From Halorubrum salipaludis (GTDB lineage: Archaea > Halobacteriota > Halobacteria > Halobacteriales > Haloferacaceae), in assembly GCF_002286985.1 (NCBI RefSeq), contig NZ_NSKC01000001.1, positions 124,001 to 188,000 on the forward strand: a DNA stretch of 64,000 nt, given 5' to 3'. The first letter of the stretch is position 1. The number at the start of each line of letters is the position of its first letter. Shown one piece after another: positions 7,201 through 60,033 of the stretch. The notes beneath the pieces are model-generated. The model was not told the DNA's origin and searched no databases. It saw nothing but the letters and a program-made list of their open reading frames with translations. The position numbers were made by a program, and so were the translations under genes.

Positions 7201-7437
7201 GTGAACAGCTTCAAACCCCCAGCCGCTCGGCTGTGCGCTGACACTTATAAACAGCCGATCGACACGAACGCCTCCAAAGCCCCAGCCGCGAGGCGGCTGC
7301 CCCTTTGAGTCCCGCCCCGCACAGCACCGCAGCCTCACGCCTCCCCAGCCTCGCCGCGGCCGCCAGTGGCGGCCGCGGGCTCCCTCGCGCGTGACCTCGC
7401 GCCCGTATCAGGGCGCTCGGCGGCACGCGCCACCGCA
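7201..7437 (+). repeat. Structured repeat element, copy 1
   Basis: This is the shortest of the five copies. A short unit comes first (conserved block at 7209, hairpin CAGCCG/CGGCTG), then a TATA-like TTATAAA at 7245-7251. The main element starts with CTCCAAAGCCC at 7272, 27 bases downstream of the box. Hairpin P1 is CAGCCGC (7283-7289) / GCGGCTG (7293-7299) with only a three-base loop; the roughly 58-base loop of copies 3-5 is missing. The conserved linker CTGCCCCTTTGAGTCCCGCC follows. P2 is an 11-bp stem (7354-7364 / 7368-7378). P4 is GCGCGTG (7387-7393) / CACGCGC (7424-7430) enclosing P3, GCGCCC (7399-7404) / GGGCGC (7411-7416). A degenerate extra unit may begin near 7153. It lies just after rfcS on the same strand. 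Confidence 0.85.
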
Positions 7438-9796: not shown

Positions 9797-10095
9797 TTAT
9801 ATAGATTAACAGCGGAGCGGTGGTGAATACCTCCAAAGCCCCAGTCGGCTCCGGTCGAGGGGCTCGCTGCGCTCCTCAGTCGCTCGTTTCACTCGCTCCT
9901 CGCGGTGCTTGCGTCGCCCATCTTCCCGGAGCCGACTGCCCCTTTGAGTCCCGCACCGCACAGCACCGCAGCCTCACGCCTCCCCAGCCTCGCGGCTCGC
10001 TCGGGGCTCCCTCCGGTCGCCCACTCCGCTCACCGCTCCCTCGCGCGTGCACCTCGCGCCCGTATCAGGGCGCTCGGCGGCACGCACCGACCGCA
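9797..10095 (+). repeat. Structured repeat element, copy 2
   Basis: TATA-like TTATATA at 9797-9803 comes 34 bases before CTCCAAAGCCC at 9831. The P1 arms are CAGTCGGCTCCGG (9842-9854) and CCGGAGCCGACTG (9926-9938), a perfect 13-bp stem. It differs from the other copies at several positions with matching changes on both arms, the strongest covariation in the set. The intervening loop is 71 bases. The linker CTGCCCCTTTGAGTCCCGC and the block GCCTCACGCCTCCCCAGCCTCG are conserved. P3 (GCGCCC / GGGCGC, loop GTATCA) is identical to copy 1, and P4 (GCGTGC / GCACGC) is retained. The P2 position holds a longer, less clearly paired insert. The element ends 16 bases before the convergent ygfZ-like stop codon. 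Confidence 0.85.
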
Positions 10096-14454: not shown

Positions 14455-14563
14455 CGCCGAAGCCAGGACTCGAACCTGGGACCGCCTCGTGACTGTGACG
14501 TCCGGGGGGAAACCCACCGAGCGTCGTAACAGCGAGGCGCTCTACCAACTGAGCTACTTCGGC
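14455..14563 (-). tRNA. tRNA-Asn (GUU) with a 36-base archaeal intron
   Basis: The acceptor stem GCCGAAG/CTTCGGC, D arm GCTC/GAGC, T arm CCAGG-TTCGAGT-CCTGG and discriminator G are all clear on the minus strand. The 5' exon is 37 bases, ending CTGTTA (anticodon GTT). The 3' exon is 36 bases, beginning A-CGAGG. The intron of 36 bases sits at the canonical 37/38 position. Its ends make a textbook bulge-helix-bulge: a CUGU/ACAG 4-bp helix flanked by 3-base bulges UCA and UAC, then GACG/CGUC inside the intron. The mature tRNA would be 73 bases plus CCA. The CCA-adding enzyme gene lies next door. Confidence 0.92.
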
Positions 14564-25611: not shown

Positions 25612-26823
25612 ATGATCAGCCTCTCCGACGTTCGCGAGGCGCGCGAGCGCGTCGGCGACGCCGCCCGACACACGCCCTTGGAGCGGTCGCGGAGCTTCTC
25701 CGAGATGAGCGGCGCGGACCTCCACCTCAAGCTGGAGAACTTCCAGCGCACCGGGGCGTTCAAGATCCGCGGGGCGATGAACCGGATCGCCACGCTCTCC
25801 GAGGCCGAGCGCGAGGCCGGCGTGGTCACGGCGAGCGCGGGCAACCACGCGCAGGGCGTCGCCCTAGCTGCCGACCGCGCCGGCGTCGACGCCACCGTCG
25901 TGATGCCGAAGTTCGCGCCCGTCTCGAAGGTGAAGGCCACCCGCGGGTACGGCGCCAGCGTCCGGCTGGAGGGCGTCGACTACGACGAGGCGCAGGCGTA
26001 CGCCCACGAGCTGGAACGCGAGGAGGGCCGGACCTACGTCCACGCGTTCGACGACCCCGTGGTGATGGCCGGACAGGGGACGCTCGGCTTGGAGATCGTC
26101 GAGGACTGCCCCGACCTGGACACGGTCGTCGTCCCGATCGGCGGCGGCGGGCTCATCTCGGGCGTCGCGGTCGCGATCAAAGAACAGCTCCCGGACGTGC
26201 GCGTCGTCGGGGTGCAGGCCGAGGGCGCGGCCTCCGCCGGTGAGTCCCTCAAAAAGGGCGAGGTCCACGAGATCGACAGCGTCGACACGATCGCCGACGG
26301 GATCGCCACCCGGTCGATCGGCGAGCAGACCCTCGAGGTGATGCGCGAGTACGTCGACGAGGTCGTCACGGTCGACGACCGCGAGATCGCCTTGGCGCTC
26401 ACGCTCCTGTTGGAGCGCTCGAAGACCCTCGTCGAGGGGGCCGGCGCGGTCGCGCTCGCGGCCGTCCTCTCGGAGGCGTTCGAGTACGACGAGGGCGAGA
26501 CGATCGTCGCCGCACTCTGCGGCGGCAACATCGACCTCAACCGCCTCGGCACCGTGATCCGCCGGGGACTGGTCCAGATGGGCCGGTACCTCAAGATCAC
26601 GATCGACCTGAAGGACCGCCCCGGCGAGCTGGAGCGCGTCTCCAGCATCGTGGCCCGCACCGGCGCGAACGTGTACGCGGTCCACCACGACCGCACCTCG
26701 CGGGACGTGGCCGTCAACGCCGCGGAGCTCGAACTGGAGCTGGAGACCGACGACGCCGAACACGCCGCCGACATCGTCGACGCCCTCGAAGCCGAGGGGT
26801 ACGAGGTCGAGATACTCTCGTGA
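25612..26823 (+). CDS. ilvA: Threonine ammonia-lyase (biosynthetic) with ACT domain
   Basis: This enzyme converts threonine to 2-oxobutanoate and ammonia, feeding isoleucine synthesis. The 403-residue PLP enzyme has the cofactor lysine Lys51 in ENFQRTGAFKIRGAM, the Ser/Gly/Asn loop ASAGNHAQGVA, and the phosphate-binding glycine run PIGGGGLISG (about 177). The C-terminal 80 residues form an ACT domain (ITIDLKDRPGELERVSSIVA), as in the short TdcB/IlvA forms of archaea. Cytoplasmic and monocistronic here. The structured repeat copy 3 ends 26 bases after its stop codon and is convergent to it. Confidence 0.95.
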   Translation: MISLSDVREARERVGDAARHTPLERSRSFSEMSGADLHLKLENFQRTGAFKIRGAMNRIATLSEAEREAGVVTASAGNHAQGVALAADRAGVDATVVMPKFAPVSKVKATRGYGASVRLEGVDYDEAQAYAHELEREEGRTYVHAFDDPVVMAGQGTLGLEIVEDCPDLDTVVVPIGGGGLISGVAVAIKEQLPDVRVVGVQAEGAASAGESLKKGEVHEIDSVDTIADGIATRSIGEQTLEVMREYVDEVVTVDDREIALALTLLLERSKTLVEGAGAVALAAVLSEAFEYDEGETIVAALCGGNIDLNRLGTVIRRGLVQMGRYLKITIDLKDRPGELERVSSIVARTGANVYAVHHDRTSRDVAVNAAELELELETDDAEHAADIVDALEAEGYEVEILS

Positions 26824-26848
26824 GCGCCGTTCTTTATAAATAGGGCGC

Positions 26849-27263
26849 GGTGGCGCGTGCCGCCGAGCGCCCGAAGGGCGCGAGGTGCACGCGCGAGGGA
26901 GCCCGCGGCCGCCAGCGGCGGCCGCGGCGAGGCTGGGGAGGTGTGAGGCTGTGCGGTGCGGGGTGGGACTCAAAGGGGCAGCCGCGAGGACGCCACAGGG
27001 GACGCAAGCACCGCAGGGAGCGAACGAAGTGAGCGACCGAGGCGCGCAGCGAGCGTGTGGCGTCCTCGCGGCTGGGGCTTTGGACGTCTTCTCCGCGCCG
27101 ATCAGCGATTTATAAGCAATCGCATCGTCGTACAGCCGAGCGGCTGGGGCTTTGGAGGTCTTCTCCGCGCCGATCAGCGATTTATAAGCAATCGCATCGT
27201 CGTACAGCCGAGCGGCTGGGGCTTTGGAGGTCTTCACTACGGAGTCGTCGATCGTTTATAAAC
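26849..27263 (-). repeat. Structured repeat element, copy 3, with 72-bp tandem array
   Basis: Read on the minus strand, the order is GTTTATAAAC (27254-27263), then two near-identical 72-bp short units (blocks ending at 27222 and 27150, only one base different between them), then the main element. Each short unit has a TATA-like TTATAAA, 23-25 bases of spacer, CTCCAAAGCCCCAGCCG and a small hairpin CAGCCG/CGGCTG. The main element's P1 is a perfect 19-bp stem (27056-27074 paired with 26979-26997) around a 58-base loop. The linker CTGCCCCTTTGAGTCCC, an 11-bp P2 (CCGCGGCCGCC/GGCGGCCGCGG, loop GCT), P4 and P3 (GCGCCC-TTC-GGGCGC) follow. It ends next to ilvA and begins 41 bases after a zinc-ribbon gene. 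Confidence 0.88.
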
Positions 27264-27303
27264 AACCGAACGCAAACGCATCCATCCTCCGAATATAAAG
27301 CCG

Positions 27304-35751: not shown

Positions 35752-35786
35752 GCGACACCGGTAGCGACTCTTTATAAACGGATTCT

Positions 35787-36079
35787 GCGGTGGCGCGCGC
35801 CTCCGAGCGGCCGCCATCGGCGGCCGTGAGGAGCGCGTGCGAGGGACGCGGCGAACGCGAGCGGCGAAGCCGCGAGCCGTGAGCCGCGAGGCTGGGGAGG
35901 CGTGAGGCTTCGGTGCGGTACGGGTGGGACTCAAAGGGGCAGCCGCGAGGCGGGCGCAGGCGACGGAAGCACCGCAGGAACGAGCACAGCGAGTGACGAG
36001 GAGCGCAACAAGCGTGCGCCCGTCTCGCGGCTGGGGCTTTGGAGATCTTCACCGGAGGACGCCTCGGAACCGCTTATAA
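35787..36079 (-). repeat. Structured repeat element, copy 4
   Basis: On the minus strand a TATA-like TTATAAG (36072-36078) comes 35 bases before CTCCAAAGCCC. P1 pairs 36015-36033 with 35940-35958: 18 of 19 positions pair, with a single A/C mismatch, around a 56-base loop. Its inner part is CGGGCGCA/TGCGCCCG, different from copies 3 and 5 but still paired. The linker CTGCCCCTTTGAGTCCC and CCTCCCCAGCCTCG block are kept. P3 is replaced by CGGCCGCC-GAT-GGCGGCCG (8 bp). P2 holds a longer insert with GCGGC-TTC-GCCGC. A second TTTATAAA lies just past the end (35771-35778). It starts 40 bases after the flavin-binding gene at 36119, on the same strand. Confidence 0.87.
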
Positions 36080-37769: not shown

Positions 37770-38159
37770 ATGAAGCGAAACGCGCTGCAGGCGACCGGAC
37801 CGACGACCGCGACGGAAGGCGACGAAACGCTCGACGACACGTTCGACGCGCTCGCCGACCCCGACTGCCGGGCGATCCTCGGGGCGGCCGACACGGCGAT
37901 GACGACGAGCGAGCTGGCCGAGGCGTGCGACATCGCACTCTCGACCGCGTACCGCAAGGTGGAACGGCTCAGCGAGACGCCCCTGCTGGTCGAGGGCGTC
38001 CGCTTCGACCCCGACGGCGACCACGCGGCGGAGTACACGCGGGGCGCGACCGACGCGACCATCGAGCTCGGCGAGGGCGGCGTCACGCTGACCGTCGACG
38101 ACACCGAGACGGACGCGGTGAGCGCCGCGTTCGACACCACCGGCGTCTCGGCCGACTGA
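37770..38159 (+). CDS. ArsR-like winged-helix regulator (129 aa)
   Basis: The HTH region is clear: TFDALADPDCRAILGAADTAMTTSELAEACDIALSTAYRKVERLSETPLL (about residues 24-75), a classical haloarchaeal ArsR-like pattern. An acidic tail with VTLTVDDTETDAVSAAFD follows. It lies directly upstream of the PAS histidine kinase, but the 122-base gap and a separate spacer make a shared transcript uncertain. A 26-bp tandem repeat starts inside its last codons and includes the stop. Confidence 0.85.
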   Translation: MKRNALQATGPTTATEGDETLDDTFDALADPDCRAILGAADTAMTTSELAEACDIALSTAYRKVERLSETPLLVEGVRFDPDGDHAAEYTRGATDATIELGEGGVTLTVDDTETDAVSAAFDTTGVSAD

Positions 38160-38208
38160 TCGCTACTGACGTCTCGGCCGACTGATCGCTACTGGCGTCT
38201 CGACCGAC
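38145..38208 (+). repeat. 26-bp tandem repeat over the stop codon of the HTH gene
   Basis: GTCTCGGCCGACTGATCGCT plus six bases occurs at 38145-38170 and again at 38171-38196 with one base changed. A third, truncated copy (GTCTCGACCGACC) follows. The TGA of the HTH gene lies in the first unit, so the second unit is a downstream copy of the gene's own end. It looks like a slippage duplication. Confidence 0.8.
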
Positions 38209-47810: not shown

Positions 47811-48327
47811 CCTTATAAATCGCTGAGGGACACGGACACCGCCGAAGTCCCAACCGCTTGCTTATAAACGGTTGCTGTTAGATCGACGACGAACACCGCC
47901 GAAGCCCCAACCGCTTGCTTATAAACGGTTGCTGTTAGATCGACGACGAACACCGCCGAAGCCCCAACCGCTCGGCCGTACGCCGATGCGATTGCTTATA
48001 AACCGCTGAGCGACACGAACACCGCCGAAGCCCCAGCCGCGAGGCGGCCGCACGCTCGCTGTGCGCTTCGGTCGCTCGCGTTGCTCGCTCCCTGCAGTGC
48101 TTGCGTCGTCTGCGGCCGCCTCGCGGCTGCCCCTTCGAGTCCCGCCCCGCACAGTACCGCACAGCGCCTCACGCCTCCCCAGCCTCGTCGGCGGCTCCCG
48201 TTGGTCGCCGCCGACTCCCTCGCACGCGCTCTCGCCGGCGGCGTCGCCGCCGGCTGTCAGAGAGACCTTCGGTCTCTCCCTACTCGCGCCCTTAAAAGGG
48301 CGCTCGGAGGCGCGCGCCGACCGCACA
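47811..48327 (+). repeat. Structured repeat element, copy 5, with 57-bp tandem array
   Basis: This is the largest copy. Three short units with conserved blocks at 47840, 47897 and 47954 repeat with a 57-bp period, each behind a TATA-like TTATAAA. The main element follows at 48023 (CGCCGAAGCCCC), 27 bases after TTATAAA. P1 is a perfect 19-bp stem (48034-48052 / 48111-48129) around a 58-base loop. The linker CTGCCCCTTCGAGTCCCGCC and CCTCCCCAGCCTCG block follow. P2 is TCGGCGGC/GCCGCCGA. Two extra hairpins are inserted, GCCGGCGGC-GTC-GCCGCCGGC and GAGAGACC-TTC-GGTCTCTC. P3 is extended to GCGCCCTT/AAGGGCGC. The element ends GCGCGCCGACCGCA, matching copy 2. Confidence 0.88.
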
Positions 48328-48680: not shown

Positions 48681-48759
48681 GTCCCGTCGGGGCGACCTGC
48701 CCCTCGGAGATCTCGGTCGCCGTCACGCTTTTGCGTACCGGCGCTAAACCGAGGGAGAG

Positions 48760-50574
48760 ATGCCCGAACGAGACCGCGTCCTGCGGGTCGACCTCTCCTC
48801 GGAGACCGTCTCCCGCGAGCGCGTTCCGGAGGCGTGGCGCCGCCGCTTTATCGGCGGGAAGGGGCTCGGTGCCCGCTACCTCTACGACGGGCTCGACGGG
48901 GGGACCGACCCGCTCGGCCCCGACAACCTGCTGGGCTTCTGCGTCGGTCCGCTCTCGGGATACCTGCCGGGCGAGACGCGCTACGCCGCGGTGACGAAGT
49001 CGCCCCTGACCGGCGGCTTCCTCGACTCGTACGCCGGCGGCGACTTCGCCGACCGCCTGGTCGGCTCGCTCGACGACTGCCTCGCCCTGCTCGTGACCGG
49101 CGTCGCCGACGAGCCGGTCCGGATCGTCGTCGAGGGCGGCGACGCCCGCGTCGAACCGGCCGAGACCTGGGGCGCGGACACGGTCGAGACCGACGCGGCC
49201 CACCCGGACGCGGGCGTCGCCTGTATCGGTCCGGCGGGCGAGCGCGGCGTGGCCTACGCGACGATCGCCTCCGACGCGGGCGACCACCACGCCGGTCGCG
49301 GCGGCGCCGGCGCGGTCATGGGGTCGAAGCGGCTCAAGGCCGTGGTGGCCCGCGGCGATCCGCCCGGGGTCCCGCCCGCGCTGGCCGCCCTTCGGGAGCG
49401 CGACGAGCGCGCCTACGCCGAGGGCGACACGGGGCGCTGGCAGGCCGCCGGCGAGACCATCGAGAGCGTCGACTTCGCCAACGAGGTGGGCGCGCTCGCC
49501 ACCGAGGGGTGGCAGCGCGACCGCTTCGAGGCCGCCGATGACATCGGCATCGAGGCCGCCCGCTCCGCCGCGGTCGGACGGGAACGCCCCGACCGCGAGG
49601 TACCCGGCGGCTTCGAGGTCGAGACCGACGCGGGGCGCTCGGTCCCCCGCGGCGCGGCGCCGATGACCCTCGGCGCGGGGCTCGGCGTCGCGGAGTTCGA
49701 CGCCGTCGCGGCGCTGGGCGAGCACTGCGACCGCCTCGGCGTCGACGTCATCTCGGCGGGCAACGCCGTCGCCTGGGCGGTCCGCGCGGCCGAGGCCGGC
49801 CGCGTCGACTGCGAGGTCTCGTTCGGCGACCCCGAGGGCGCCCGCGCGCTCATCGAGGCGATCGCGACGGGCGGGGCCGGCCCCTGCGAGCCGGGCGTCG
49901 CCGACGCGCTCGCCGGGGGCGTCGATGCCGCGGCCGACGCCTACGGCACCGACGACGCCATCCCGACGGTCAAGTCGATGGAGCTGCCGTCGTACGACCC
50001 CCGGGCGGCCGTCGGCATGGCGCTGGCGTACGCGACCAGCGACCGCGGCGGCTGTCACCGCCGGGCCCGCCCCATCGAGTGGGAAGCCGTCGCCGACGGG
50101 GCGTCGACGAGCGACCGGGTCGCGGCGGTCGTGACCGCGCAGAACACTCGGTCGGCGCTGTGGAGCTTCGTCGCGGACGACTTCGCCGGCGAGCCGCTGT
50201 GGGACGGGTTCGGCGCCGAGTGGTTCGACGCGCTCGGCTACGACCACGACGCCGCGTCCCTCCGGCTGGCCGGCGAGCGCGTCTGGAACCTCGTTCGGCT
50301 GTTCAACGCCCGCGAGGGGTTCGACCGCGAGGCGGACGAACTCCCGCCCACCCTGACCGAGCCCGTCACGGACGGCCCCGCGGCGGGCGACCGCGTCGAG
50401 CCGGCGGCCTTCGAACGCCTCCTCGACGCCTACTACGCCGCCCGCGGCTGGGACCGCGACGGGCTGCCGACCCCCGAAACGCTCGCCCGGCTCGACCTCG
50501 ATGCGGTCGCCGACGCCGAGACGCCGGTCGGAACCCCGCCCGAGAACGACCCTCCGAGACACGACGATGACTGA
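48760..50574 (+). CDS. Aldehyde ferredoxin oxidoreductase homologue lacking cluster cysteines
   Basis: The 604-residue length fits the AOR family (tungstopterin enzymes oxidising aldehydes). Domain 1 is well kept: VDLSSETVSRERVPEAWRRR, FIGGKGLGARYL, GPLSGYLPGETRY, TKSPLTGGFLDSYAGG, and GRGGAGAVMGSKRLKAVVARG. The C-terminal MELPSYDPRAAVGMALAYA-TSDRGGCHRRA is also kept. However, the CxxCxxxC motif that ligates the 4Fe-4S cluster (expected near residues 280-300) is absent, and the last cluster cysteine is missing. Only scattered single cysteines remain. The pterin-binding fold may survive without the cluster. An SD-like GAGGGAGAG precedes the ATG. It overlaps the next gene by eight bases. Confidence 0.88.
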   Translation: MPERDRVLRVDLSSETVSRERVPEAWRRRFIGGKGLGARYLYDGLDGGTDPLGPDNLLGFCVGPLSGYLPGETRYAAVTKSPLTGGFLDSYAGGDFADRLVGSLDDCLALLVTGVADEPVRIVVEGGDARVEPAETWGADTVETDAAHPDAGVACIGPAGERGVAYATIASDAGDHHAGRGGAGAVMGSKRLKAVVARGDPPGVPPALAALRERDERAYAEGDTGRWQAAGETIESVDFANEVGALATEGWQRDRFEAADDIGIEAARSAAVGRERPDREVPGGFEVETDAGRSVPRGAAPMTLGAGLGVAEFDAVAALGEHCDRLGVDVISAGNAVAWAVRAAEAGRVDCEVSFGDPEGARALIEAIATGGAGPCEPGVADALAGGVDAAADAYGTDDAIPTVKSMELPSYDPRAAVGMALAYATSDRGGCHRRARPIEWEAVADGASTSDRVAAVVTAQNTRSALWSFVADDFAGEPLWDGFGAEWFDALGYDHDAASLRLAGERVWNLVRLFNAREGFDREADELPPTLTEPVTDGPAAGDRVEPAAFERLLDAYYAARGWDRDGLPTPETLARLDLDAVADAETPVGTPPENDPPRHDDD

Positions 50575-51274
50575 ACGGATCGACCTCGACGACATCGAGA
50601 CGGACGGTGACGACGACTCCCGACCCGACCGCGACGCCTGGCTACAGCGGAGCGAGGACGGCGACGAGACCGGCGCCGACTCGGCCGGCAGCGGGTCGCC
50701 CGATACCGACTCGGTCGCCGCCGACTCGCCCGATTCCGACGCGGCTGATTCCGACGCGGCCGACGACAGCCCGTCCGGCGCCATCCCGCGAGTCCCGCGG
50801 GAGAACGACGACAAGCCCGCCGGCGTGCCGACCGACCGCGGCGGCTCCGGCGCGGGCGCGACGGTCTCGGAGGCGCCCGACGACGCCCGTCCGATGGGCG
50901 GCGGCCCGCACGGCGGCGGCACCGACGAGATGACGATGGCGTTGACGTACAACGCCTTGACCGCGCTCGCCGACCCACGGCTGGTCGTCGCCTCCGCCCG
51001 CGAGTGGGCCGACTGGATCGGGATCGTCGGCGACGTGAGCGCCCCGGTCATCACGCGGTTCCAGCGCGATCACGGCGTCGACGCCGACTTCTTCAACGGC
51101 ACGGGTGACGGGCCCGCCGAACGGCTCGCCGAGGTCGACGAGACCTCGATGTTCCACGCCGAGCGGCTGGCGGTCGTCGGGACGCCCGACGACGAGTGGA
51201 TCGCCGAGGCGGCCGGCTGGGAGTTCGTCCCCCTGGAGACGGCGGCCGAGAAGGCCGGCTGGGACCTCGCGTAG
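50567..51274 (+). CDS. Acidic protein with conserved C-terminal domain, AOR partner
   Basis: This 235-residue protein has an N-terminal half that is a disordered Asp/Ser/Ala-rich acidic stretch. The second half (about 120-235) is an ordered domain, with EMTMALTYNALTALADPRLV, ADWIGIVGDVSAPVITRFQR and FHAERLAVVGTPDDEWI. I recall this as DUF7124 (unverified). The ATG lies eight bases inside the AOR-like gene, so the two are co-translated and the proteins probably work together. No cofactor motif is seen. Confidence 0.78.
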   Translation: MTERIDLDDIETDGDDDSRPDRDAWLQRSEDGDETGADSAGSGSPDTDSVAADSPDSDAADSDAADDSPSGAIPRVPRENDDKPAGVPTDRGGSGAGATVSEAPDDARPMGGGPHGGGTDEMTMALTYNALTALADPRLVVASAREWADWIGIVGDVSAPVITRFQRDHGVDADFFNGTGDGPAERLAEVDETSMFHAERLAVVGTPDDEWIAEAAGWEFVPLETAAEKAGWDLA

Positions 51275-51363
51275 CCGCGGGGGAGTCGCCCGCCGCCCGA
51301 GCGGTTCCGGACCGCTTGCCGGCACGGGGAACACTTTAGACCGTGTGGTGAGATATCACGGGC

Positions 51364-51621
51364 ATGGGTCTTCGAACCGCGAGCCAGCAGAACGGACTGC
51401 TTCTGGCAGGACTGCTGTTGTTCATCGGATGGGGCGCGCTCACCGCGCTGAACGTCGCGACGAGCGCCGGACCGATAGCCGCCGACTGGTGGATCGGCCA
51501 ACACGGCGTCGGCGCCGTCGTCGGGGCCGTCGTGCTGTTGGCCCTCGTCGGGTTCGCCATCGCCCTCGTCGGCGAGCTGAACGAAGATGGTCCCGCGCCG
51601 GACGAGTGGCCGCCGCAGTAG
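51364..51621 (+). CDS. Small two-helix membrane protein (85 aa)
   Basis: The 85-residue product has a polar start, a first helix (NGLLLAGLLLFIGWGALTAL, about 10-29) and a second (VGAVVGAVVLLALVGFAIAL, about 49-68), then an acidic, Pro-rich tail. A TATA-like CTTTAG at 51334 lies about 25-30 bases before the ATG, so the gene opens its own short operon. The next, 44-residue gene begins one base after its stop. Confidence 0.7.
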   Translation: MGLRTASQQNGLLLAGLLLFIGWGALTALNVATSAGPIAADWWIGQHGVGAVVGAVVLLALVGFAIALVGELNEDGPAPDEWPPQ

Positions 51622-51756
51622 ATGTACTACGAGTGTGCCGAGTGCGGGCTGGTCGACCGGGGGAACCCGCTGGACGAGCCCGTCGTACGCGAGTGTCCCG
51701 ACTGCGGAGTGACCACGACGTGGGAACCGGCCTTCGAGGGGGCGCCGAACTCGTGA
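51622..51756 (+). CDS. Tiny zinc-ribbon protein (44 aa)
   Basis: ATG 51622 directly abuts the TAG of the upstream gene. The 44-residue product, starting MYYECAECGLVDRGNPLDEP, has two CxxC pairs (CAEC and CPDC) 20 residues apart and ends in an acidic WEPAFEGAPNS. The stop overlaps the GTG of the next gene by two bases (GTGA). The tight packing and the zinc-ribbon pattern make it a real gene despite its size. Confidence 0.72.
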   Translation: MYYECAECGLVDRGNPLDEPVVRECPDCGVTTTWEPAFEGAPNS

Positions 51757-52103
51757 GCGACCCGATCGAGGTCCCGATCTCGGAACGGTTCCGCCGCGGG
51801 GCCGACCAGTGGGCCGAAGAGCGCGTGATGACCGAGGAGGCCGCCCTCGAGGCCAAGGCCGAGCAGGCGCTGCTGGAGATCGAACACCTCGCGACCGGCG
51901 CTCAGGAGGTCGACTTCGAGCTCGACGAGGAGGGGGAGATCATCCGATACGTCCCCAGCGGGGAGCTGCGGGCGTTCCTCGACGCCCAGGCCGAGGCGTC
52001 CGGCGTCGACCGCGAGACCGTGCTGCGGCTCCACGTCGATCTCTTCGCCGGCGCGTTCCTCGACTCCGACACCGTCACGCCGGAGTCAGTGACCCACGAC
52101 TGA
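51753..52103 (+). CDS. Conserved helical protein (116 aa)
   Basis: From GTG 51753 the 116-residue protein is acidic and mostly helical (RFRRGADQWAEERVMTEEAALEAKAEQALLEIEHL), with a short beta stretch EVDFELDEEGEIIRYVPSG, and a C-terminal helix (RAFLDAQAEASGVDRETVLRL). No known function. Its stop codon lies inside a hairpin that resembles the end of an IS200/IS605 element (52093-52112), so its last five residues (SVTHD) may come from inserted DNA. Confidence 0.7.
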   Translation: MSDPIEVPISERFRRGADQWAEERVMTEEAALEAKAEQALLEIEHLATGAQEVDFELDEEGEIIRYVPSGELRAFLDAQAEASGVDRETVLRLHVDLFAGAFLDSDTVTPESVTHD

Positions 52104-52138
52104 AGTCGTGGGCTTCCGCCTCGTGCCTCTGTGAGGCG
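52093..52138 (+). mobile_element. Two hairpins resembling an IS200/IS605 right end
   Basis: CCCACGACT (52093-52101) and AGTCGTGGG (52104-52112) form a nine-pair hairpin around GA. A second hairpin CGCCTC/GAGGCG lies at 52117-52122 / 52133-52138. Sequences of the type CCCACGACT-N-AGTCGTGGG are familiar at the right ends of haloarchaeal IS200/IS605/IS1341-type elements. No transposase or tnpB is present in the window. It is best read as a solo remnant, or a terminator-like hairpin borrowed from one. Confidence 0.5.
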
Positions 52139-52226
52139 TCGGCTCCCCTCCGTTTCGCCTCGCCGCCGGGCCGAGAAAACGCGGTCGAGGGGAAGCTATT
52201 TGTCCGTGCACGGGTATGACAGTCGT

Positions 52227-52385
52227 ATGCACGAAGACAGCGGATGGCGTCCCGACACCGGCTGTCAGCGGTGTAACGGTCACGAGACGTGGACGCACAA
52301 CGCGGCCCACGAGATAAACGACGGCCAGCGCGACCCCGACGAGATGGACCTCGGACTGACCGAGGACGACGAAGACGACGAGTAG
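52227..52385 (+). CDS. Small conserved acidic protein (52 aa)
   Basis: The 52-residue product starts MHEDSGWRPDTGCQRCNGHETWTHN. A CQRC pair plus several His residues (GHETWTHNAAHE) hint at metal binding. The tail is acidic (DLGLTEDDEDDE). It lies alone, about 120 bases after the hairpin remnant and convergent with the TorD-like gene (33 bases). I have no function for it, and being this short the call rests on composition and the Cys-His pattern. Confidence 0.55.
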   Translation: MHEDSGWRPDTGCQRCNGHETWTHNAAHEINDGQRDPDEMDLGLTEDDEDDE

Positions 52386-52418
52386 GGCGCCGGAAGCGGC
52401 GAACGCCCAGCCGGCCGG

Positions 52419-53051
52419 TCAAGTCATCTGACTCGCGATCTCCTCCTCGAAGGCGACGTACCCCGACAGCAGGTACGCCGCCGCCTCGTAGAACGGCTCG
52501 TCGGTGTTGTCCAACACGTCCCGCGCGCAGTCGTCGATCCACTGCGAGAGGTGTTCGTCGTGGAAGACGCGCTGGAACCCCAGCGTCTCCTCGTCGCCCG
52601 CCCGCTGGCGCTCGATCAGGTGCCGGAGGAACGCCAGCTCGACGGCGACGTGGTCGTTCTCCTCGGGGTAGTCGTCGGGCGGCGACCAGCCCGCGGCCCC
52701 GTAGCTGGCCTCGACCTTCGCGAGCCCCTCGCCGCGGAAGTCGGTGTCGTCGCGGTAGTGCGTCTCGTGGGGAAGGACCGGCGGCCGCGGGCCGACGAAG
52801 ACGCGGGTGTACTCGCGTTCGAGGTCGTCGCGGACCGCGTCGACGTCGCGCCCCTCGTTGTCGGCGGCGAACGCGCGGAGGCGCTCGAACCCGGCGTCGA
52901 GGTCGTCCGAGACGGCCTGCTCCGGGACCTCGAAGTCGCCCGAGAGCAGCCGTTCGAGCAGCTCCTCCGGCGGGTAGTCGGCGAAGGCGTCCACGAGGAA
53001 CCCCGAGAGCTCGAGGCGGGTCTCGTAGAGGGCGGTCTGGTCGAGGCTCAT
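52419..53051 (-). CDS. TorD/DmsD-family molybdoenzyme chaperone
   Basis: This 210-residue all-helical protein matches the TorD/DmsD/NarJ chaperones that bind the Tat leader of molybdoenzymes and hold them until cofactor is inserted. Key stretch: REYTRVFVGPRPPVLPHETHYR with the EYTRLFxGP-type motif near residues 80-100, then RHLIERQRAGDEETLGFQRVFHDEHL. It overlaps the polyferredoxin gene by four bases (53048-53051), and sits opposite the formate dehydrogenase operon, whose catalytic subunit has a Tat leader, a natural client. Confidence 0.88.
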   Translation of the reverse strand: MSLDQTALYETRLELSGFLVDAFADYPPEELLERLLSGDFEVPEQAVSDDLDAGFERLRAFAADNEGRDVDAVRDDLEREYTRVFVGPRPPVLPHETHYRDDTDFRGEGLAKVEASYGAAGWSPPDDYPEENDHVAVELAFLRHLIERQRAGDEETLGFQRVFHDEHLSQWIDDCARDVLDNTDEPFYEAAAYLLSGYVAFEEEIASQMT

Positions 53052-55246
53052 CGGTCGCCCCCCACGTCGCCGCTCCCGTGAAGGAGCCGCACGCGGCAGT
53101 CCGGACAGTAGTCGAAGACGTTCTCGTCGCCGGCGGTGAGCCCCTCGACGAGCCCGCCGACCTCCTCTTGGATCTTGCTGGCCGTGCCCTCGCTGGCGAA
53201 GGGCGTCCCGCAGTTGGCGCACTCGCGCATCTCGCCCTCGAAGGCCGTCTCCCACGACTCCCCGTCGCGGTTCTCCGGGAGCCGGTCGAGGTGGATCCCC
53301 GGATCGAGCTCGATCGCGTCCTCCATACACCCCTCCTCGCAGAGTCCGCAGTTGACGCACCGCTCGTGGCTGAACTGGAGCTCGGCGCCGTCTCGGCGGA
53401 GCGCGTCGGTCGGACAGAGGTTCGAACACGTCGGCGTCAGCGCGCAGTCGTCGGACACCTCGACGGCCGCGAAGTCCTTCAGCCCGCGGATCACGTCCCG
53501 CTCGGGGTCGACGTGGTCGAGGATCGTCCGGACGCTCTCTAACGTCCAGTCGTGGCTGTTGAACGCGGGGTTCGGGCGCTCGCCGCCGCTCGGCTGGGCC
53601 GCGATCCCGCCGTCGGTCAGGGCGGCGCCCGCCCCGTCCCTCCCGGCGCCCGGGTCGACGAGCCGCCCCGTCGCCTCGTGTTCGCCGGCGGGGACGGGCG
53701 ACGGGTCGAGCGACTCGACGAACGCGTCGAGCTCGTCGACGAACGGCCCGTGGTCGGCGAGATTCGGCGCGAAGAAGGCGACGCGCTCGCCGAGGCCGAG
53801 GTCGGTCGTGGCGCGGTTGAGCCGGTCGACTAACTCGGCCTTGGGGTCCGGTCCGGAGTGCAGGCAGTCGTCGCCGCAGCCGACGACCGCGACGCCGTCC
53901 GCGCCCGCGGCGAGCGCGTGGGCGACGTGCGCCTCGCCGACGGTGTCGGTGCAGTTGACCCGGACGGGGAGGATCGGCGGGTACTCGACGCCCGGCCCGA
54001 TCTGCGAGCGGCGGCCGTACTCGGAGAGCGCCTCGGCGGCGCGCTCCGAGCAGACGAACGCGACGACGGGCGTCTCGATCCCGTCCGAGCCGCGGTCGAA
54101 GAGCCAGCCGCCCGAGTCGTCCGTGGTCGGACGCAGCAGGGCCTCCACCTGTCGGGCGATGCGCTCGTTGTCGGGCTCGCTGAGCGTGACCGCGCCGGTC
54201 GGACACGAGCTGGTGCAGGCGCCGCAGTTCCGGCACGCCTCCTTGAAGAAGTCCACGTCGTCGACGCGGGGGCGCTCGACGGCGCCGTGGGGGCAGGCGT
54301 CGACGCAGGCGGTACAGCCCTGCTGGCCCGACTCGCCGGCGGCGCAGACGTCCATATCGAGATCGAGGTGGTCCGGACCCTCGTAGCCGCCGAGCATGGA
54401 CTCGATCGCCGAGACCGCCCCGGCGTCGACGTGCGTGTAGAACCCGATCCGACCACCGCGGGTGTCGGCGTCGGCGCCGGGGTAGACGACCTGGTCGACC
54501 TCCAGCTCGCGGGCGACGCCGTCGGTGTCGATGGCGTCGACGGGACAGCAGTCGGTCCACGCGCCGTCGGGCGCGTCGGGGTCGATGTCGACCGGCCTGG
54601 TCGTGACCATCCCGTCGGGTCCCCGTCGGACGCACTCCATACAGGAGATGCAGTCCTCGGTGACGCGGGCCTCGAGCGTCAGGGTGAACTCGCCGAACCG
54701 CCCCGAGACGTCGGCGACGCGGCCGCGCTCGACGGTCACCTCGTCGAGGTCCGCCTCGCCGGCCAGCTCCCGGCCGTCGGCGACGAGCGTCACGTCGGCC
54801 GTGTCGGCGAGCGCCGCGGCGGTCTCGGCGTCCCCGACGACGGCGACCCGGTCGCCTGCCTCGCGGGTGTGGACGCGCTCGACCGGCTCGTGGTCGAAGC
54901 GGGTGGCCGCGGCGTTGGCCAGTCGCGCGGTCTTGTCGGTGGCGGCGGACTCGCCGTGGACCCAGCCGGCGCCCTCGCGCTGGTCGACGAACTCGATGGC
55001 GTCCGGGTGGAGCCCGTGGTCGACCGCCTCCTCCCGGAGCGACTCCTGGACGCCGGGCTCCGGACAGGTGACGACGAGCTGGTCGAGGTCGTGCTCGTCG
55101 ATGACCGCCGACATGGCATCGCGGCCGTCGCCGCAGAGCATCCGCGAGCTCGCGGCGACGTCGACCCCCTCGATGCCCTCTCGGGCCTCGGCGAGGTCGA
55201 CGTCGCAGGTGTCCGCACAGGAGCAGACGAAGGTCCCCGTGTTCAT
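53048..55246 (-). CDS. Polyferredoxin with MvhD/FlpD-like domain
   Basis: This 732-residue Fe-S protein has an N-terminal CSCADTCD cysteine group, 4Fe-4S motifs (CISCMECVRRG, CAAGESGQQGCTACVDACP, CRNCGACTSSCP), a middle MvhD/FlpD-like domain (VAFVCSERAAEALSEYGRR ... VVGCGDDCLHSGPDPKAEL, about 360-470), a later double-ferredoxin region (CSNLCPTDALRR, CVNCGLCEEGCMEDAIEL), and a C-terminal zinc ribbon (CANCGTPF / CPDC). This matches the hydrogenase/heterodisulfide-reductase iron-sulfur type that couples electrons between partners. No flavin HdrA domain was seen. It is divergent from fdhG with a 430-base shared promoter region. Confidence 0.9.
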   Translation of the reverse strand: MNTGTFVCSCADTCDVDLAEAREGIEGVDVAASSRMLCGDGRDAMSAVIDEHDLDQLVVTCPEPGVQESLREEAVDHGLHPDAIEFVDQREGAGWVHGESAATDKTARLANAAATRFDHEPVERVHTREAGDRVAVVGDAETAAALADTADVTLVADGRELAGEADLDEVTVERGRVADVSGRFGEFTLTLEARVTEDCISCMECVRRGPDGMVTTRPVDIDPDAPDGAWTDCCPVDAIDTDGVARELEVDQVVYPGADADTRGGRIGFYTHVDAGAVSAIESMLGGYEGPDHLDLDMDVCAAGESGQQGCTACVDACPHGAVERPRVDDVDFFKEACRNCGACTSSCPTGAVTLSEPDNERIARQVEALLRPTTDDSGGWLFDRGSDGIETPVVAFVCSERAAEALSEYGRRSQIGPGVEYPPILPVRVNCTDTVGEAHVAHALAAGADGVAVVGCGDDCLHSGPDPKAELVDRLNRATTDLGLGERVAFFAPNLADHGPFVDELDAFVESLDPSPVPAGEHEATGRLVDPGAGRDGAGAALTDGGIAAQPSGGERPNPAFNSHDWTLESVRTILDHVDPERDVIRGLKDFAAVEVSDDCALTPTCSNLCPTDALRRDGAELQFSHERCVNCGLCEEGCMEDAIELDPGIHLDRLPENRDGESWETAFEGEMRECANCGTPFASEGTASKIQEEVGGLVEGLTAGDENVFDYCPDCRVRLLHGSGDVGGDR

Positions 55247-55497
55247 GCGAACCGGGTTATGGCCGGAGTGTCAAAGGGCTTGCTGCGAACCGAACCGGAT
55301 CCGGTCAGAACCGCCGCGACCGCCGGCACGGATCGGGCCGCGACCCGCACGTGGGTCTGTCCCGGGCACAGATCAGTGTCCCGCGCCGGACTCGGAATGC
55401 GTCACCGCTCGCACCGCGCGTCCGCCGATCGCGGGCCGGCGCGCGCGAGCGATATCCGCGCCAATCGGTAGCACATTCATCGCCCTTCGTCGGAGGG

Positions 55498-55563
55498 TTT
55501 AAATACTATAAATAGATTTTCCGCGTTCCAGCGGTCTGAAAAGTAACTATAATCATAAATACA
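55498..55563 (+). promoter_or_regulatory. AT-rich promoter region of the formate dehydrogenase operon
   Basis: In this GC-rich window, 55498-55563 is strikingly AT-rich. It has TTTAAATA (55498-55505), CTATAAATAG (55506-55515), ACTATAATC (from 55546) and CATAAATACA (55554-55563). Two TATA-like boxes give two possible starts, with leaders of roughly 90 or 140 bases before the ATG at 55677. It lies in the shared region with the divergent polyferredoxin gene. The rest of 55247-55676 holds no gene I can support. Confidence 0.6.
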
Positions 55564-55676
55564 GGAAGATCTGGCCGGTTCTGTCGGAAGTTTCTTTTGA
55601 TTACGGTCGTGGGCCCATGCTGTATGCCGATCCGGCGTGCGGGACACGTGGGGTTGGGCACACGGAGCGGCAACCA

Positions 55677-58600
55677 ATGAGCGAGCCCGTAACACTCGAC
55701 CTGGACAGGCGGTCGTTCATGAAGGCCTCCGCGCTGGCGGGCGCGGTCGCCTTCGGGGGCGGCGCGACTGGACAGGTCCTCGGACAGGAGGAGGAACCGG
55801 ACGGCGTCGGCGACGACGCCGAGACAGCGAAGGTGATCTGTAACTACTGTTCCATCGGCTGCGGCTTCAAGGCCGTCAAGGACGGCGAGGCGTTCGTCGG
55901 CCAGGAGCCGTGGCACGAGAACCCGCTGAACAACGGGTCGCTGTGTTCGAAGGGGGCCGGGATCTTGGAGACCGAGCACTCCGAGCGGCGGCTCAAACAC
56001 CCGATGCGGAAGGAGGACGGCGAGTGGCGGAAGATTTCGTGGGACGAGGCGTACAGCGAGATCGCCGAGACCTACGAGGAGACGGTCGAGCAGTACAGCC
56101 CGGAGAGCGTGATGCTGCTGGGATCGGCGCACCACTCCAACGAGTCGGCGTACGCCTCCCGGAAGTTCTCCGCGTTCCTCGGCACCAACAACATCGACCA
56201 CCAGGCGCGTATCTGCCACTCGACGACCGTCACCGGCCTCGCGAACACGTGGGGCTACGGGGCGATGACCAACACGATCAACGACTACCGGAACTTCGAC
56301 CTCCTCATCATCATCGGGCAGAACCCGGCGGAGGCGCACCCGGTCGTGATGCAGCACATCCTGGAGGGGCAGAAGCGGGGCGGCACCATCGTCTCTATCG
56401 ACCCCCGGTACACGAAGACGTCGGCGCACGCCGACCGCTTCCACCGGATGCGCCCGGGGACGGACGTGGCCATCATGATGGGCCTCATCAAGTACGTCCG
56501 CGACCAGGGCGAGCTCGACGAGGAGATGCTCGACGAGCGGACGATGGGGTGGCCGGACGTCGACGCCGAGCTCGACCAGTACGACCTCGAGACCGTCGCC
56601 GACATCTCCTGGATAAGCGAGGAGAGCCTCCAGGAGATCGGCGACCTCGTGATCGAGAACCAGCCCAACATCCAGATCGAGTGGGCGATGGGCGGCACCC
56701 AGCACAACAACGGGACGCAGAACATCCGCTCGTACGCGCTGGCGTCGCTGGGGTGGGGGTCGGCCGCCCGCTCCGGCGGCGGCCTCCAGGTTATGCGCGG
56801 CCACGCCAACGTCCAGGGGGCGACCGACCTCGGCGTCGAGTCGTCGATCCTTCCGGGCTACTACGGCGTCGGCGGCGCGGGGTCGTGGGAACACTGGACC
56901 AACGTCTGGAACCAGAGTCCGTGGACCTCGGGGTCGATCACGGCCGAGGAGCTCCACGACGACTACTTCGCCACGATGGACGACGAGCTCTTCGAGAAGA
57001 TCAACGGCGGGCCCCCGGGCGACGACCGGGACACGAGCTGGCCGGACACCGCGGGCAACATGATGTTCCGCGAGGGGCTGACCGTCGCCCGGTGGTACGA
57101 GGCCGCGCTCGACCAGAGCGACCGGCTCAACGAGTCCGACCTCTACCAGCCCGACCCGGTGAAGATGGCCTTCTACTGGGGCCACTCGGCGAACTCCATC
57201 TCGGAGATGGACAAACAGCGACAGGCGATGGAGGCGCTCGACCTCCTGGTCGTGGTCGACGTCTTCCCGGCGGTCGCCGGCACGCTCCCGAAGGAGGACA
57301 ACGTCCTGCTACTGCCCGCGTCGAGCCAGTACGAGCACGTCCGGACGCTGACCAACACCAACCGCTCGGTCCAGTGGTCCGAGCGCGCCTCGCCGCCGGC
57401 GCACAACTCCAAGCCGGACCTCCAGATATTCATGGAGCTGGCCCACGAGCTCGGCTTCGGCGAGCACTTCGACTGGGGCTCCGGGAAGGGGATCTACAAC
57501 GGCCGGTCGACCCACGAGGACGTCGTCCGCGAGATCAACCTCGGGACGCGCTCGATCGGCTACCAGCAGCCGCCGGAGAAGCTCCAACAGCACGTCGAGT
57601 ACGACTACCTGTTCAACACCGACACGCTCCGCGCCGACGCGCCGGGCACGCCGGTCGACGGGGAGTACTGGTCGCTGCCGTGGCCCTACTGGGGCGGCGA
57701 CCACCCCGGGACGCCGATCATCTGGACCTCCGAGCTCGACCCGCGCGACGGCGGCCACGACTTCCGGACCAGCTGGGGGACGCAGGCCCCCACGCCCGAC
57801 GAGTGGGACGACATGGGCGTCGACAAGCCGTACCCGATGTCCGAGACGGTCGCCGAGGAGGGCGAGGCGGACGGCCTCGATCTGCTGCGCGACCCCTTCG
57901 AGCCCGAGTGGTGGGACGACACCATCGAGGGCGTCCCGCAGTATCCGGCGTTCACGACGACGCTGCCGGACGACGTGACCGAGCCGCACCAGCAGTCGCT
58001 CCCGCAGGAGTACGCGCTCCGCGAGGACCGCTCCGCGTTCGACGCGGCACAGGAGCTCAACGAGAACTACGGTCACGACCACGACCTCGACTTCTGGGCG
58101 CAGTTCGACAACAACCAGCCGGACCCGCCGACGGGACGCGGCAAGGCCCGCGCGGTGGCGTGGAACTTCCTCGACACCGTCCCGGTCCACCGCGAGCCGA
58201 TCGAGAGCCCGCGCCCGGACCTCGTCGAGGAGTGGCCCGCGAACGGCCAGCAGCACAACTTCTGGCGGCTCGACCAGAACAACGCGACGACACAGGAGAA
58301 CGCGATGCAGGAGGTGCAGTCGGCCCAAGCGGAGATGCCCGACGGCGCCCAGCAGCTGATCCTCACCTCGGGGCGACAGGTCGAACATCAGGGCGGCGGC
58401 GCCGAGACGCGCAACAACCCCCTGACGGCCGATCTCCAGCCGCACATGTACGCGGAGATCCATCCGGACGTCGCCGAGGAGATGGACCTCCGCGGCGGCG
58501 AAGACCACGTCATCGTCCACCCGACCGCCTCGGAGAAGAGCTCGATCCTCGTGAAGGCGAAGGTGACGGAGCGCCCGAACACCGAGGAGATATTCCTGCC

Positions 58601-58901
58601 GTACCACTGGGGCGGGGTCTTCAGCGGCCAGAGCCAGGCCGACGCCTACCCGGAGGGGACGAAGCCGCTGGCGATCGGCGAGTCGGCGAACATCGTGACG
58701 GCCTCCGGGTTCGACGTCGAGACGCAGATGCAAGAGACCAAGGCGGGGATCGTCGTGATGGAGAAGGCGACGGAGGCGCGCGTCGAGGAACTCGACATGG
58801 AGTTCATCGACTACCCGCAAGACGAGGCCGGCATCGGCCGCCAGAAGTCCTACGACACGCGCGACTGGGACATGGCACAAGAGAGCTTCGGTGACGACTA
58901 A
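55677..58901 (+). CDS. fdhG: Formate dehydrogenase catalytic subunit, Tat-exported, Cys form
   Basis: This is a 1074-residue bis-MGD molybdo/tungsto enzyme. A Tat leader (RRSFMK at residues 11-16, then a hydrophobic Ala/Gly stretch) sends it to the outer face. The 4Fe-4S ligands are Cys55, Cys58 and Cys62 (CNYCSIGC) and Cys90 (NNGSLCSKGAG). The active-site residue is Cys180 in DHQARICHSTTV, the position of selenocysteine in E. coli FdnG (NQARV-U-HGPTV), followed by TGLANTWGYGAMTN. The C-terminal dinucleotide-binding domain is complete (LTSGRQVEHQGGGAETRNNP). ATG 55677 is preferred to one 60 bases upstream, since the Tat motif then sits near the start. Confidence 0.93.
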   Translation: MSEPVTLDLDRRSFMKASALAGAVAFGGGATGQVLGQEEEPDGVGDDAETAKVICNYCSIGCGFKAVKDGEAFVGQEPWHENPLNNGSLCSKGAGILETEHSERRLKHPMRKEDGEWRKISWDEAYSEIAETYEETVEQYSPESVMLLGSAHHSNESAYASRKFSAFLGTNNIDHQARICHSTTVTGLANTWGYGAMTNTINDYRNFDLLIIIGQNPAEAHPVVMQHILEGQKRGGTIVSIDPRYTKTSAHADRFHRMRPGTDVAIMMGLIKYVRDQGELDEEMLDERTMGWPDVDAELDQYDLETVADISWISEESLQEIGDLVIENQPNIQIEWAMGGTQHNNGTQNIRSYALASLGWGSAARSGGGLQVMRGHANVQGATDLGVESSILPGYYGVGGAGSWEHWTNVWNQSPWTSGSITAEELHDDYFATMDDELFEKINGGPPGDDRDTSWPDTAGNMMFREGLTVARWYEAALDQSDRLNESDLYQPDPVKMAFYWGHSANSISEMDKQRQAMEALDLLVVVDVFPAVAGTLPKEDNVLLLPASSQYEHVRTLTNTNRSVQWSERASPPAHNSKPDLQIFMELAHELGFGEHFDWGSGKGIYNGRSTHEDVVREINLGTRSIGYQQPPEKLQQHVEYDYLFNTDTLRADAPGTPVDGEYWSLPWPYWGGDHPGTPIIWTSELDPRDGGHDFRTSWGTQAPTPDEWDDMGVDKPYPMSETVAEEGEADGLDLLRDPFEPEWWDDTIEGVPQYPAFTTTLPDDVTEPHQQSLPQEYALREDRSAFDAAQELNENYGHDHDLDFWAQFDNNQPDPPTGRGKARAVAWNFLDTVPVHREPIESPRPDLVEEWPANGQQHNFWRLDQNNATTQENAMQEVQSAQAEMPDGAQQLILTSGRQVEHQGGGAETRNNPLTADLQPHMYAEIHPDVAEEMDLRGGEDHVIVHPTASEKSSILVKAKVTERPNTEEIFLPYHWGGVFSGQSQADAYPEGTKPLAIGESANIVTASGFDVETQMQETKAGIVVMEKATEARVEELDMEFIDYPQDEAGIGRQKSYDTRDWDMAQESFGDD

Positions 58902-59575
58902 TGTCAACACACAACCAAAACCGGATGAGCGACGGCGTGATGTCCACGGGCGAGGGGATGCGCATCTTCCCCGACGTGGAGGCCTGCATCGACTGCGGGG
59001 CCTGCGTCGTCTCGTGTAAGCGCACGTGGGACGTACCGAACACCGAACAGCGCATCGAGATATCGACCATGCTGGAGGGCCGCGAGGGCGACGAGGGGTA
59101 CAACCACCGCCAGACGGCGGCCCTCGCGGAGGGACAGAACCCCGGGGAGACCAGCCTCCCGATGCAGTGTTACCACTGCGAGAACGCCCCGTGCGTGTCG
59201 GTGTGCCCGACCGACGCCCTCCAGAAGGAGGACGACGGCTTCGTGACGGTGTCGGACGACCTCTGTGTTGGCTGTCAGTACTGCCTGTCGGCCTGCCCGT
59301 TCGGCGCCCCGCAGTTCCCGGACGGCGAGGGGACCGTCAGCTCCGAGGTGTTCGGCACCGGCGGCGTGATGGACAAGTGTACCGGCTGCCGGTCGCGCCA
59401 GAAGGCCGGGAAGGGACCGGCGTGCGCCGAGGAGTGCTCGACGGACGCCATCCTCGTCGGCTCCGCCGGCGACATCGCGGACGAACTCGAACAGCGCGGG
59501 AGCGGGTCGTTCTTCAACGACACCGCCCTAGAGATAATCTTCGGCGACGACGCCGACATGGTGAGCGACGCATGA
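58901..59575 (+). CDS. fdhH: Formate dehydrogenase iron-sulfur subunit
   Basis: This 224-residue ferredoxin-like subunit resembles FdnH/HybA/DmsB-type four-cluster proteins. Four Cys groups are visible: CIDCGACVVSC (about 31-41), CYHCENAPCVSVCP (about 88-101), CVGCQYCLSACP (about 121-132) and CTGCRSRQKAGKGPACAEEC (about 160-179). Together they would pass electrons from the catalytic subunit to the membrane part. No signal peptide was seen, so it likely leaves with the Tat-borne catalytic subunit. Its ATG overlaps the fdhG stop by one base (TAATG). Confidence 0.92.
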   Translation: MSTHNQNRMSDGVMSTGEGMRIFPDVEACIDCGACVVSCKRTWDVPNTEQRIEISTMLEGREGDEGYNHRQTAALAEGQNPGETSLPMQCYHCENAPCVSVCPTDALQKEDDGFVTVSDDLCVGCQYCLSACPFGAPQFPDGEGTVSSEVFGTGGVMDKCTGCRSRQKAGKGPACAEECSTDAILVGSAGDIADELEQRGSGSFFNDTALEIIFGDDADMVSDA

Positions 59576-60033
59576 GCGATCCCGACCCGACCGACGGCGA
59601 CACGAGCGACGAGGAGCCGGCGACGACGGAGGCGTCGGGGGCATCGAGCGGCGGCGACCGCGCCGACAGCCTCGTCTTCTGGGGCTGTGCGGTCTTCGGC
59701 CTCGCGCTGGCGACCGGGTCGGTGTGGTTCTTCAGTTCGCAAGGGATCTGGCACGAGGCGCTGATGCGGGTCCACCCCACGCTGAGCGGCGGCGGCGTCG
59801 GCGCCAGCTGGGAGGCCGGCGTCACGAACACGGTCCTGACGTTCCTGATCGACTTCATCCACGTCGCGGACGTCGTCATGGGGATCTTCATCCTCCTGTT
59901 GATGCTGATCCACTGGACGGCGTTCCACCGGCTCGCGAGCCGGATGCGACCGCCGGCCGGGACCGGGACCGGAATGGAGACGGAGGCGCCCGTCGCCGAT
60001 GGCGGCGAACCGAAGGGAGGTGACCGCGAATGA
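59572..60033 (+). CDS. Two-helix membrane subunit in the formate dehydrogenase operon (153 aa)
   Basis: This 153-residue protein has an acidic N-terminus (1-32), a membrane helix at about 35-57 (LVFWGCAVFGLALATGSVWFF), a second at about 87-113 (VLTFLIDFIHVADVVMGIFI), and a Gly/Pro-rich tail. It overlaps fdhH by four bases and the cytochrome gene by four bases (60030-60033), so it is a real operon member. It is not a subunit of the classical FdnGHI complex, so it may be a haloarchaeal accessory or part of an enlarged membrane anchor. The two His residues in its helices could be heme ligands, but that is a guess. Confidence 0.8.
   Translation: MSDPDPTDGDTSDEEPATTEASGASSGGDRADSLVFWGCAVFGLALATGSVWFFSSQGIWHEALMRVHPTLSGGGVGASWEAGVTNTVLTFLIDFIHVADVVMGIFILLLMLIHWTAFHRLASRMRPPAGTGTGMETEAPVADGGEPKGGDRE

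Follow-up and report, generated by a model that had tools for sequence, protein, structure and literature searches.

What is the short unit that stands repeated beside an ilvA-like gene of Halorubrum salipaludis, and does its repetition reflect a set of promoters or something else? Within the window, the whole stretch of 64,000 nucleotides that was analysed here, there are five copies of one repeat, two of which carry tandem arrays of a unit that looks like a promoter. A preliminary description of this DNA had taken the unit for just that, with local duplication giving each locus several starts for short or long transcripts.

Tandem arrays in the window

The first of the arrays belongs to copy 3 (26834-27261, minus strand, comprising the array, hairpin A, box C and the 3' hairpins), which lies in the gap between a convergent ilvA-like gene (25612-26823, plus strand) and a small zinc-ribbon gene that was read by eye (27438-27304, minus strand); the orientation earlier taken as sense is the minus strand. 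The near-identical 72-bp units described for this copy are found by TRF as a tandem array at 27068-27235 (minus strand, 2.3 copies, 98% identity), and a conserved block is present three times on the minus strand, at 27216-27227 (CCAAAGCCCCAG), 27144-27155 and 27072-27083, the last of these being the main block, whose CAAAG (P1), CCC and P2 sequences form the 5' arm of hairpin A. A TATA-like TTATAA precedes each block on the same strand, at 27256-27261, 27182-27187 and 27110-27115 respectively.

Copy 5 (47813-48320, plus strand) has the 57-bp units that had been reported, TRF giving an array at 47832-47972 (plus strand) with 2.5 copies and 97% identity. Its blocks lie at 47842, 47899 and 47956 and then, 69 bp further on, at 48025, with TATA boxes at 47813, 47862, 47919 and 47996, box B at 48127-48143 and box C at 48170-48187. 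The one unit ascribed to copy 1 (7211-7436, plus strand) is likewise there as a single degenerate block at 7211-7222, and is followed by a TATA box (7245-7250), block (7274-7285), box B (7297-7313), box C (7336-7353) and end motif (7424-7436); hairpin A is minimal in this copy, the apical part being missing, while P1, a 7-bp P2 and the C-loop between them are kept. Copy 2 (9797-10089, plus strand) has TTATAT at 9797-9802, its block at 9833-9844, box B at 9936-9952 and box C at 9975-9992, and copy 4 (35772-36079, minus strand) has a TATA box at 36074-36079, its block at 36031-36042, box B at 35926-35942, box C at 35887-35904, the end motif at 35787-35799 and a 3' TATA at 35772-35777.

The arrays had been set apart from CRISPR, and rightly so; there are no unique spacers between the repeats, with the entire unit repeated at 97-98% identity, and a CRISPR was rejected on these grounds. 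The window also holds an unrelated 26-bp tandem repeat (38144-38208, 2.5 copies, 94%) and a tRNA of 109 nt (14455-14563, minus strand) that matches Rfam, was missed by ARAGORN and probably contains an intron. About 13 kb of the window (48681-61900) is missing from the syntenic region in six relatives, in which the alignments jump from 48681 to 61900, and this stretch is apparently a lineage-specific island adjoining copy 5.

Structure of the repeat

In the orientation of the preliminary description, the order of the element is a variable number of block and TATA units, a further TATA, GAAnAC, the main block CTCCAAAGCCCCAG and a variable P2 stem, in which further hairpins may be nested, and 3' of P2 there follow box B CTGCCCCTTTGAGTCCC, box C CACGCCTCCCCAGCCTCG, P3, P4, GCCACCGC and TTATAA. 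The block, made of CAAAG, CCC and one P2 arm, pairs with box B some 100 nt downstream in what we call hairpin A, which is layered as P1 (CAAAG/CTTTG), a symmetric CCC/CCC internal loop and then P2. Copy 3 has hairpin A, with a long P2, at 26971-27082, box B CTGCCCCTTTGAGTCCC as its 3' arm at 26965-26981, box C (CACACCTCCCCAGCCTCG) at 26928-26945, the end motif CACGCGCCACCGC that closes the 3' hairpin at 26847-26859 and the 3' TTATAA at 26834-26839, all on the minus strand. Other short hairpins, TCGTTCGAAAGGCGCGAAGCGCCTTTCG for example, are nested at preferred positions within the P2 apical loop and P3, with examples among the copies of this genome at G000:C1:352847, C12:139975 and C26:270874.

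Hairpin A is real, is the conserved core of the repeat and covaries throughout the class. P1 in 290 distinct copies is CAAAG/CTTTG in 200, GAAAG/CTTTC in 65 and CGAAG/CTTCG in 19, with 6 others; copy 5 of the window is among the 19, its CTTCG in box B compensating CGAAG in the blocks. P2 arms taken from one copy pair at 11.2 of 12 positions, a value reached by none of 500 shuffles, and when arms are exchanged between copies only 7.4 of 12 positions (other genera) or 9.2 of 12 (own genome) are paired; in the genus g20 the P2 arm is nearly invariant and that set is uninformative on pairing either way. With 39 diverse copies from many genera RNAalifold predicted P1, the CCC/CCC loop and P2 unguided, and 11 of the 15 pairs of this structure are changed on both sides. 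When the structure is fixed at 12 pairs, 97.9% of cells pair and the covariation is 0.593 compared with 0.139 when shuffled, and sliding the partner by 1-3 columns reduces pairing to 33-48% and covariation to 0.04-0.08; the shuffles ignore the relatedness of the copies, the slide control does not.

There are weak hints that the strand opposite to the one described is the one that folds. Mismatches in P2 are mostly A-C, which would be G-U on the opposite strand (89 versus 25, or 50 versus 21 once one hot column is removed), and in 46 of 47 copies the opposite strand is predicted to fold with the greater stability (-67.1 versus -59.1 kcal/mol), with both the wobble and the energy figures inflated by shared ancestry and strand composition.

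Copy number and genomic setting

The 3.5 Mb host genome contains about 124 copies of the repeat. Box B CTGCCCCTTTGAGTCCC has 126 matches in it at up to 2 mismatches, with 2 for the reversed control, and at up to 1 mismatch all 35 sampled Halorubrum genomes have between 6 and 185 matches each and one other genus, g20, has 72. In the 1.57 Mb of the own genome from which full copies were recovered there are 62, and 59 of 61 lie outside genes called with a home-made GC3-based caller, which is crude and misses small genes. By the same caller the gaps of these 61 copies are convergent in 32 cases, tandem in 21 and divergent in 8, compared with 97, 154 and 87 among all gaps of at least 200 bp, and in tandem gaps 12 copies read with the genes and 9 against them, so there is no orientation bias. 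The element is GC-rich, at 74% in the core and 3' part. It probably breaks assemblies, as several contigs of this genome (G000 contigs C23, C26 and C27) start or stop inside a copy.

Spread across the haloarchaea

P1 has the C-G form in Halorubrum and the G-C form elsewhere. The G-C version, searched as GAAAGCCCC-N75..105-GCCCCTTTCAGT, is found in 184 of the 382 haloarchaeal genomes, belonging to 56 of the 85 genera, with up to 49 matches per genome and zero for the reversed control in any genome. Halorubrum is essentially without this version because it carries the compensated C-G version, which is present in 43 of 46 Halorubrum genomes, in g20 and in a few others (control 0). Exact core matches in named genomes are nearly all from Halorubrum, with one more from an unclassified archaeal MAG, and in some genera box C and the 3' part resemble those of Halorubrum. 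Some other genera (L375-L378, L405 and L409) have hairpin A paired head to head in a palindrome around GTCCCACCC..GGGCGGGAC, with ends like AACAGCCAGAAAGCCCC.

None of the 4227 Rfam models matches copy 3 at E<=5, and the core words are absent from, and the repeat is not described in, the open PMC literature on haloarchaeal MITEs, REPs and ncRNAs. The repeat family is a previously unnamed one that is class-wide, structured and supported by covariation.

TATA-like boxes and possible transcription

The most obvious reading of the arrays is that every unit is a working promoter, with nested short and long ncRNAs starting from GAAnAC and unit number tuning the output. A TATA box at -48 to -28 from CCAAAG, a promoter-like distance, is found in 50 of 62 main units and 28 of 42 array units in Halorubrum, with 0.6 and 0.2 expected from shuffles. 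The haloarchaeal promoter has a TATA starting at -26, and the 58-bp class I intergenic repeats of the halovirus HF2 are proven promoters in Halorubrum (PMC8707807), sharing with the arrays a TATA in the repeat, although HF2 motifs such as TCTTTAAGTC are missing from the Halorubrum unit and the HF2 repeats stand alone without hairpin A. From the -26 rule (PMC8707807) starts would be predicted at GAAnAC, and for block 2 of copy 3 at about 27161.

The TATA box does not, however, define the unit. The preliminary description had a TATA-like box in each unit at a distance of 27-35 bases from the block, which stands for every block of copies 3 and 5 and, as to distance, for most Halorubrum units, yet about one third of the array units across Halorubrum lack the box and in the ortholog L173 it is much farther from the block. 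Outside Halorubrum it is absent from all 67 main blocks (0 of 23 in g20, 0 of 44 in other genera), although extra upstream blocks do occur there (11 of 23 in g20, 5 of 44 in other genera), and between those blocks no TATA is found either (0 of 11 and 0 of 5). As it is absent where extra blocks are present, the TATA is a local feature of Halorubrum. This, together with the absence of a preferred orientation next to tandem genes (12 with them, 9 against) and with the wobble asymmetry and folding energy that favour the opposite strand, indicates that it is the block, forming the 5' arm of hairpin A, that is the conserved unit. That all units are promoters is therefore unlikely, and the 'promoter array' would be at most a use specific to Halorubrum, in which the TATA boxes may additionally start short transcripts at GAAnAC.

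Number and spacing of the tandem units

Two or more blocks are present in 25 of the 62 own copies. The period had been thought to differ between loci, and this did not hold: the 57-bp spacing is found at 14 own loci and makes up 70 of 132 distinct pairs in Halorubrum, and the 72-bp class is found at 4 own loci, where the units are 98% identical inside a locus and 87% identical from one locus to another. As the same periods recur, unit types are common to several loci, with local duplication acting on top. Local duplication itself, also part of the preliminary description, is borne out by unit identities of 91-99% within a locus and 72-87% between loci, and by comparison of unit number across relatives, which ranges from 0 to 4 at one orthologous site, the 3' site of ilvA, where the period is 51, 57, 69, 72 or 75 in different species.

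Of 151 distinct pairs of adjacent blocks, taken from two genera, 147 are spaced by an exact multiple of 3. Halorubrum contributes 128 of 132 (51, 54, 57, 60, 63, 66, 69, 72, 75, 102 and 114, the exceptions being 56 and 61) and g20 19 of 19 (72, 75 and 78); many of these pairs share ancestry, yet 11 of the 13 distinct Halorubrum lengths fit the triplet rule. The distances from block to box B and from box B to box C are not multiples of 3. Such a register could be expected if the arrays were coding repeats with units of 19-25 residues, in which the TATA-like motif would be read as Tyr-Lys or Phe-Ile codons, and one minus frame is stop-free in 90 of 119 units where 60 are expected. There are, however, stops in every frame of the arrays and no common reading frame in those of g20, mismatch rates are equal at the three codon positions (0.297/0.307/0.306) and there is no GC3 skew as seen in haloarchaeal genes. 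On account of the stops and the missing codon periodicity the coding explanation is disfavoured and appears extremely improbable. RadA-type recombinases step in base triplets, and it is conceivable, if rather doubtful, that the non-coding triplet register is the footprint of a RadA-like recombinase or comes from an unrecognised reading of the arrays by ribosomes.

Terminal inverted repeats and apparent mobility

Whether the repeat moves can be approached from its ends and from its distribution. About one third of the 62 own copies lie inside a longer element of 430-630 bp with inverted repeats GATCGATnGCGGGAGTGnGTnTnGCA at both ends, the first block being preceded by the inverted repeat at 103 nt in nearly all cases, and on other Halorubrum contigs all 9 of 9 inverted-repeat pairs enclose the core (446-502 bp). 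Between the inverted repeats of the 430-630 bp elements there is no ORF, these being too short for a transposase. Comparison of orthologous gaps among Halorubrum species shows them occupied, empty, decayed or filled in the opposite orientation, which speaks for both insertion and loss; the gap of copy 5, for example, has a copy in the opposite orientation in two relatives and no copy in three. Because orthologous gaps vary in this way the element looks mobile in a MITE- or BOX-like manner, and we infer that it transposes. Deletion derivatives are also seen, with the ilvA 3' site of genome G295 (L175) having lost the core between two GGCTGGGG words, and L423 having lost box B and box C with its nested hairpins kept.

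Against this model, the five window copies, and two thirds of the own copies, have no GATCGATnGCGGGAGTGnGTnTnGCA inverted repeats, and no transposase with matching ends was found: neither the 1.57 Mb of this genome nor some 130 loci contain an inverted-repeat pair around a larger ORF, as an autonomous transposon would have. As to target-site duplications, no common word was seen in the flanks of the copies and the empty sites compared are strongly diverged, with none near-identical; low-stringency BLAST of the outer flanks gave GC-rich noise only.

An alternative is that the repeat derives from IS200/IS605 as a PATE, or is of the REP/RAYT type, and is moved as ssDNA by a Y1 transposase that recognises the hairpins. 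The heterogeneous copies with hairpins near the element ends resemble the PATEs of Haloquadratum (PMC3119063) and the wobble preference for the G-rich strand would agree with the reading of a single ssDNA strand, but the only Y1 transposase of the genome belongs to an ordinary IS200/IS605 pair with different ends that lack hairpin A, and terminal inverted repeats, missing from PATEs by definition, are present in one third of the copies. Mobilisation of this kind is disfavoured and seems quite improbable.

A viral or plasmid origin was also rejected, as viral contigs and phage records hold no copy of the core and the sole plasmid match is one copy on one Halorubrum plasmid. This scarcity is unusual for a simple selfish element, and fits instead with a host ncRNA gene family, in which a class-wide functional RNA gene became multi-copy, much as SINEs derive from 7SL, and was kept for its function, not as a parasite. 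Hairpin A is conserved class-wide, and copies adjoin the same ilvA gene at its 3' end in many Halorubrum species, which could reflect retention instead of repeated insertion. No conserved single-copy locus is seen, though, with 0-185 copies per genome, orthologous sites may be empty, decayed or inverted, and about half of haloarchaeal genomes have no match, such that a host ncRNA family is again quite improbable.

The most probable explanation, and one held with fair confidence, is that a dispersed intergenic repeat of haloarchaea, mobile and structured, has the arrays as its 5' module of variable number; the repeat would work like a MITE and most resemble the pneumococcal BOX. It is preferred because of the covarying hairpin, the copy number, the class-wide spread, the terminal inverted repeats in about one third of copies, the polymorphism of orthologous gaps and an array number that differs between species; it does not predict the triplet spacing seen in the arrays. 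Each unit would repeat the block, which as the 5' arm of hairpin A finds its pairing partner, box B, about 100 nt further 3', and Halorubrum units have a TATA-like box besides. Copies may spread via a transposase acting in trans, arrays may lengthen or shorten locally through recombination between the repeated blocks, and a folding single strand, RNA or ssDNA, could be recognised via the C-loop hairpin.

Comparison with known repeats

The BOX of Streptococcus pneumoniae (boxA-boxBn-boxC) is a modular intergenic repeat of more than 100 copies with TIR-like outer parts, a short variable-number inner module and stem-loops (PMC3049150). The likeness to the haloarchaeal repeat, which is likewise modular and intergenic with more than 100 copies, inverted repeats in its outer parts, a short variable-number tandem module and stem-loops, is architectural only; the haloarchaeal repeat is GC-rich (74% in core and 3' part), its core hairpin is conserved over a whole archaeal class and the module that it repeats in tandem corresponds to a single arm of the main hairpin and is placed 5' of that hairpin. 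Comparable too are the families of 110-520 bp from Haloquadratum walsbyi, which include SMRs whose TIRs are unrelated to known transposons and PATEs with near-terminal palindromes (PMC3119063). These MITEs, SMRs and PATEs are also short, transposase-free haloarchaeal repeats, but are from one species, whereas the present repeat has a covarying hairpin through at least 56 genera and tandem 5' modules. With the bacterial REP and BIME it shares high-copy intergenic palindromes that are nested and clustered, differing from them in being much longer, in having a conserved internal C-loop and tandem arms, and in that no RAYT partner was found.

Significance

The repeat provides an archaeal counterpart to modular BOX-type repeats, one present more than 100 times in Halorubrum and without an Rfam model. 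Its arrays also lend themselves to use as a VNTR system, with 0-4 units, depending on the species, at the 3' site of ilvA alone, and such repeats could account for breaks in assemblies and for spurious GC-rich ORF calls in the genomes that carry them.
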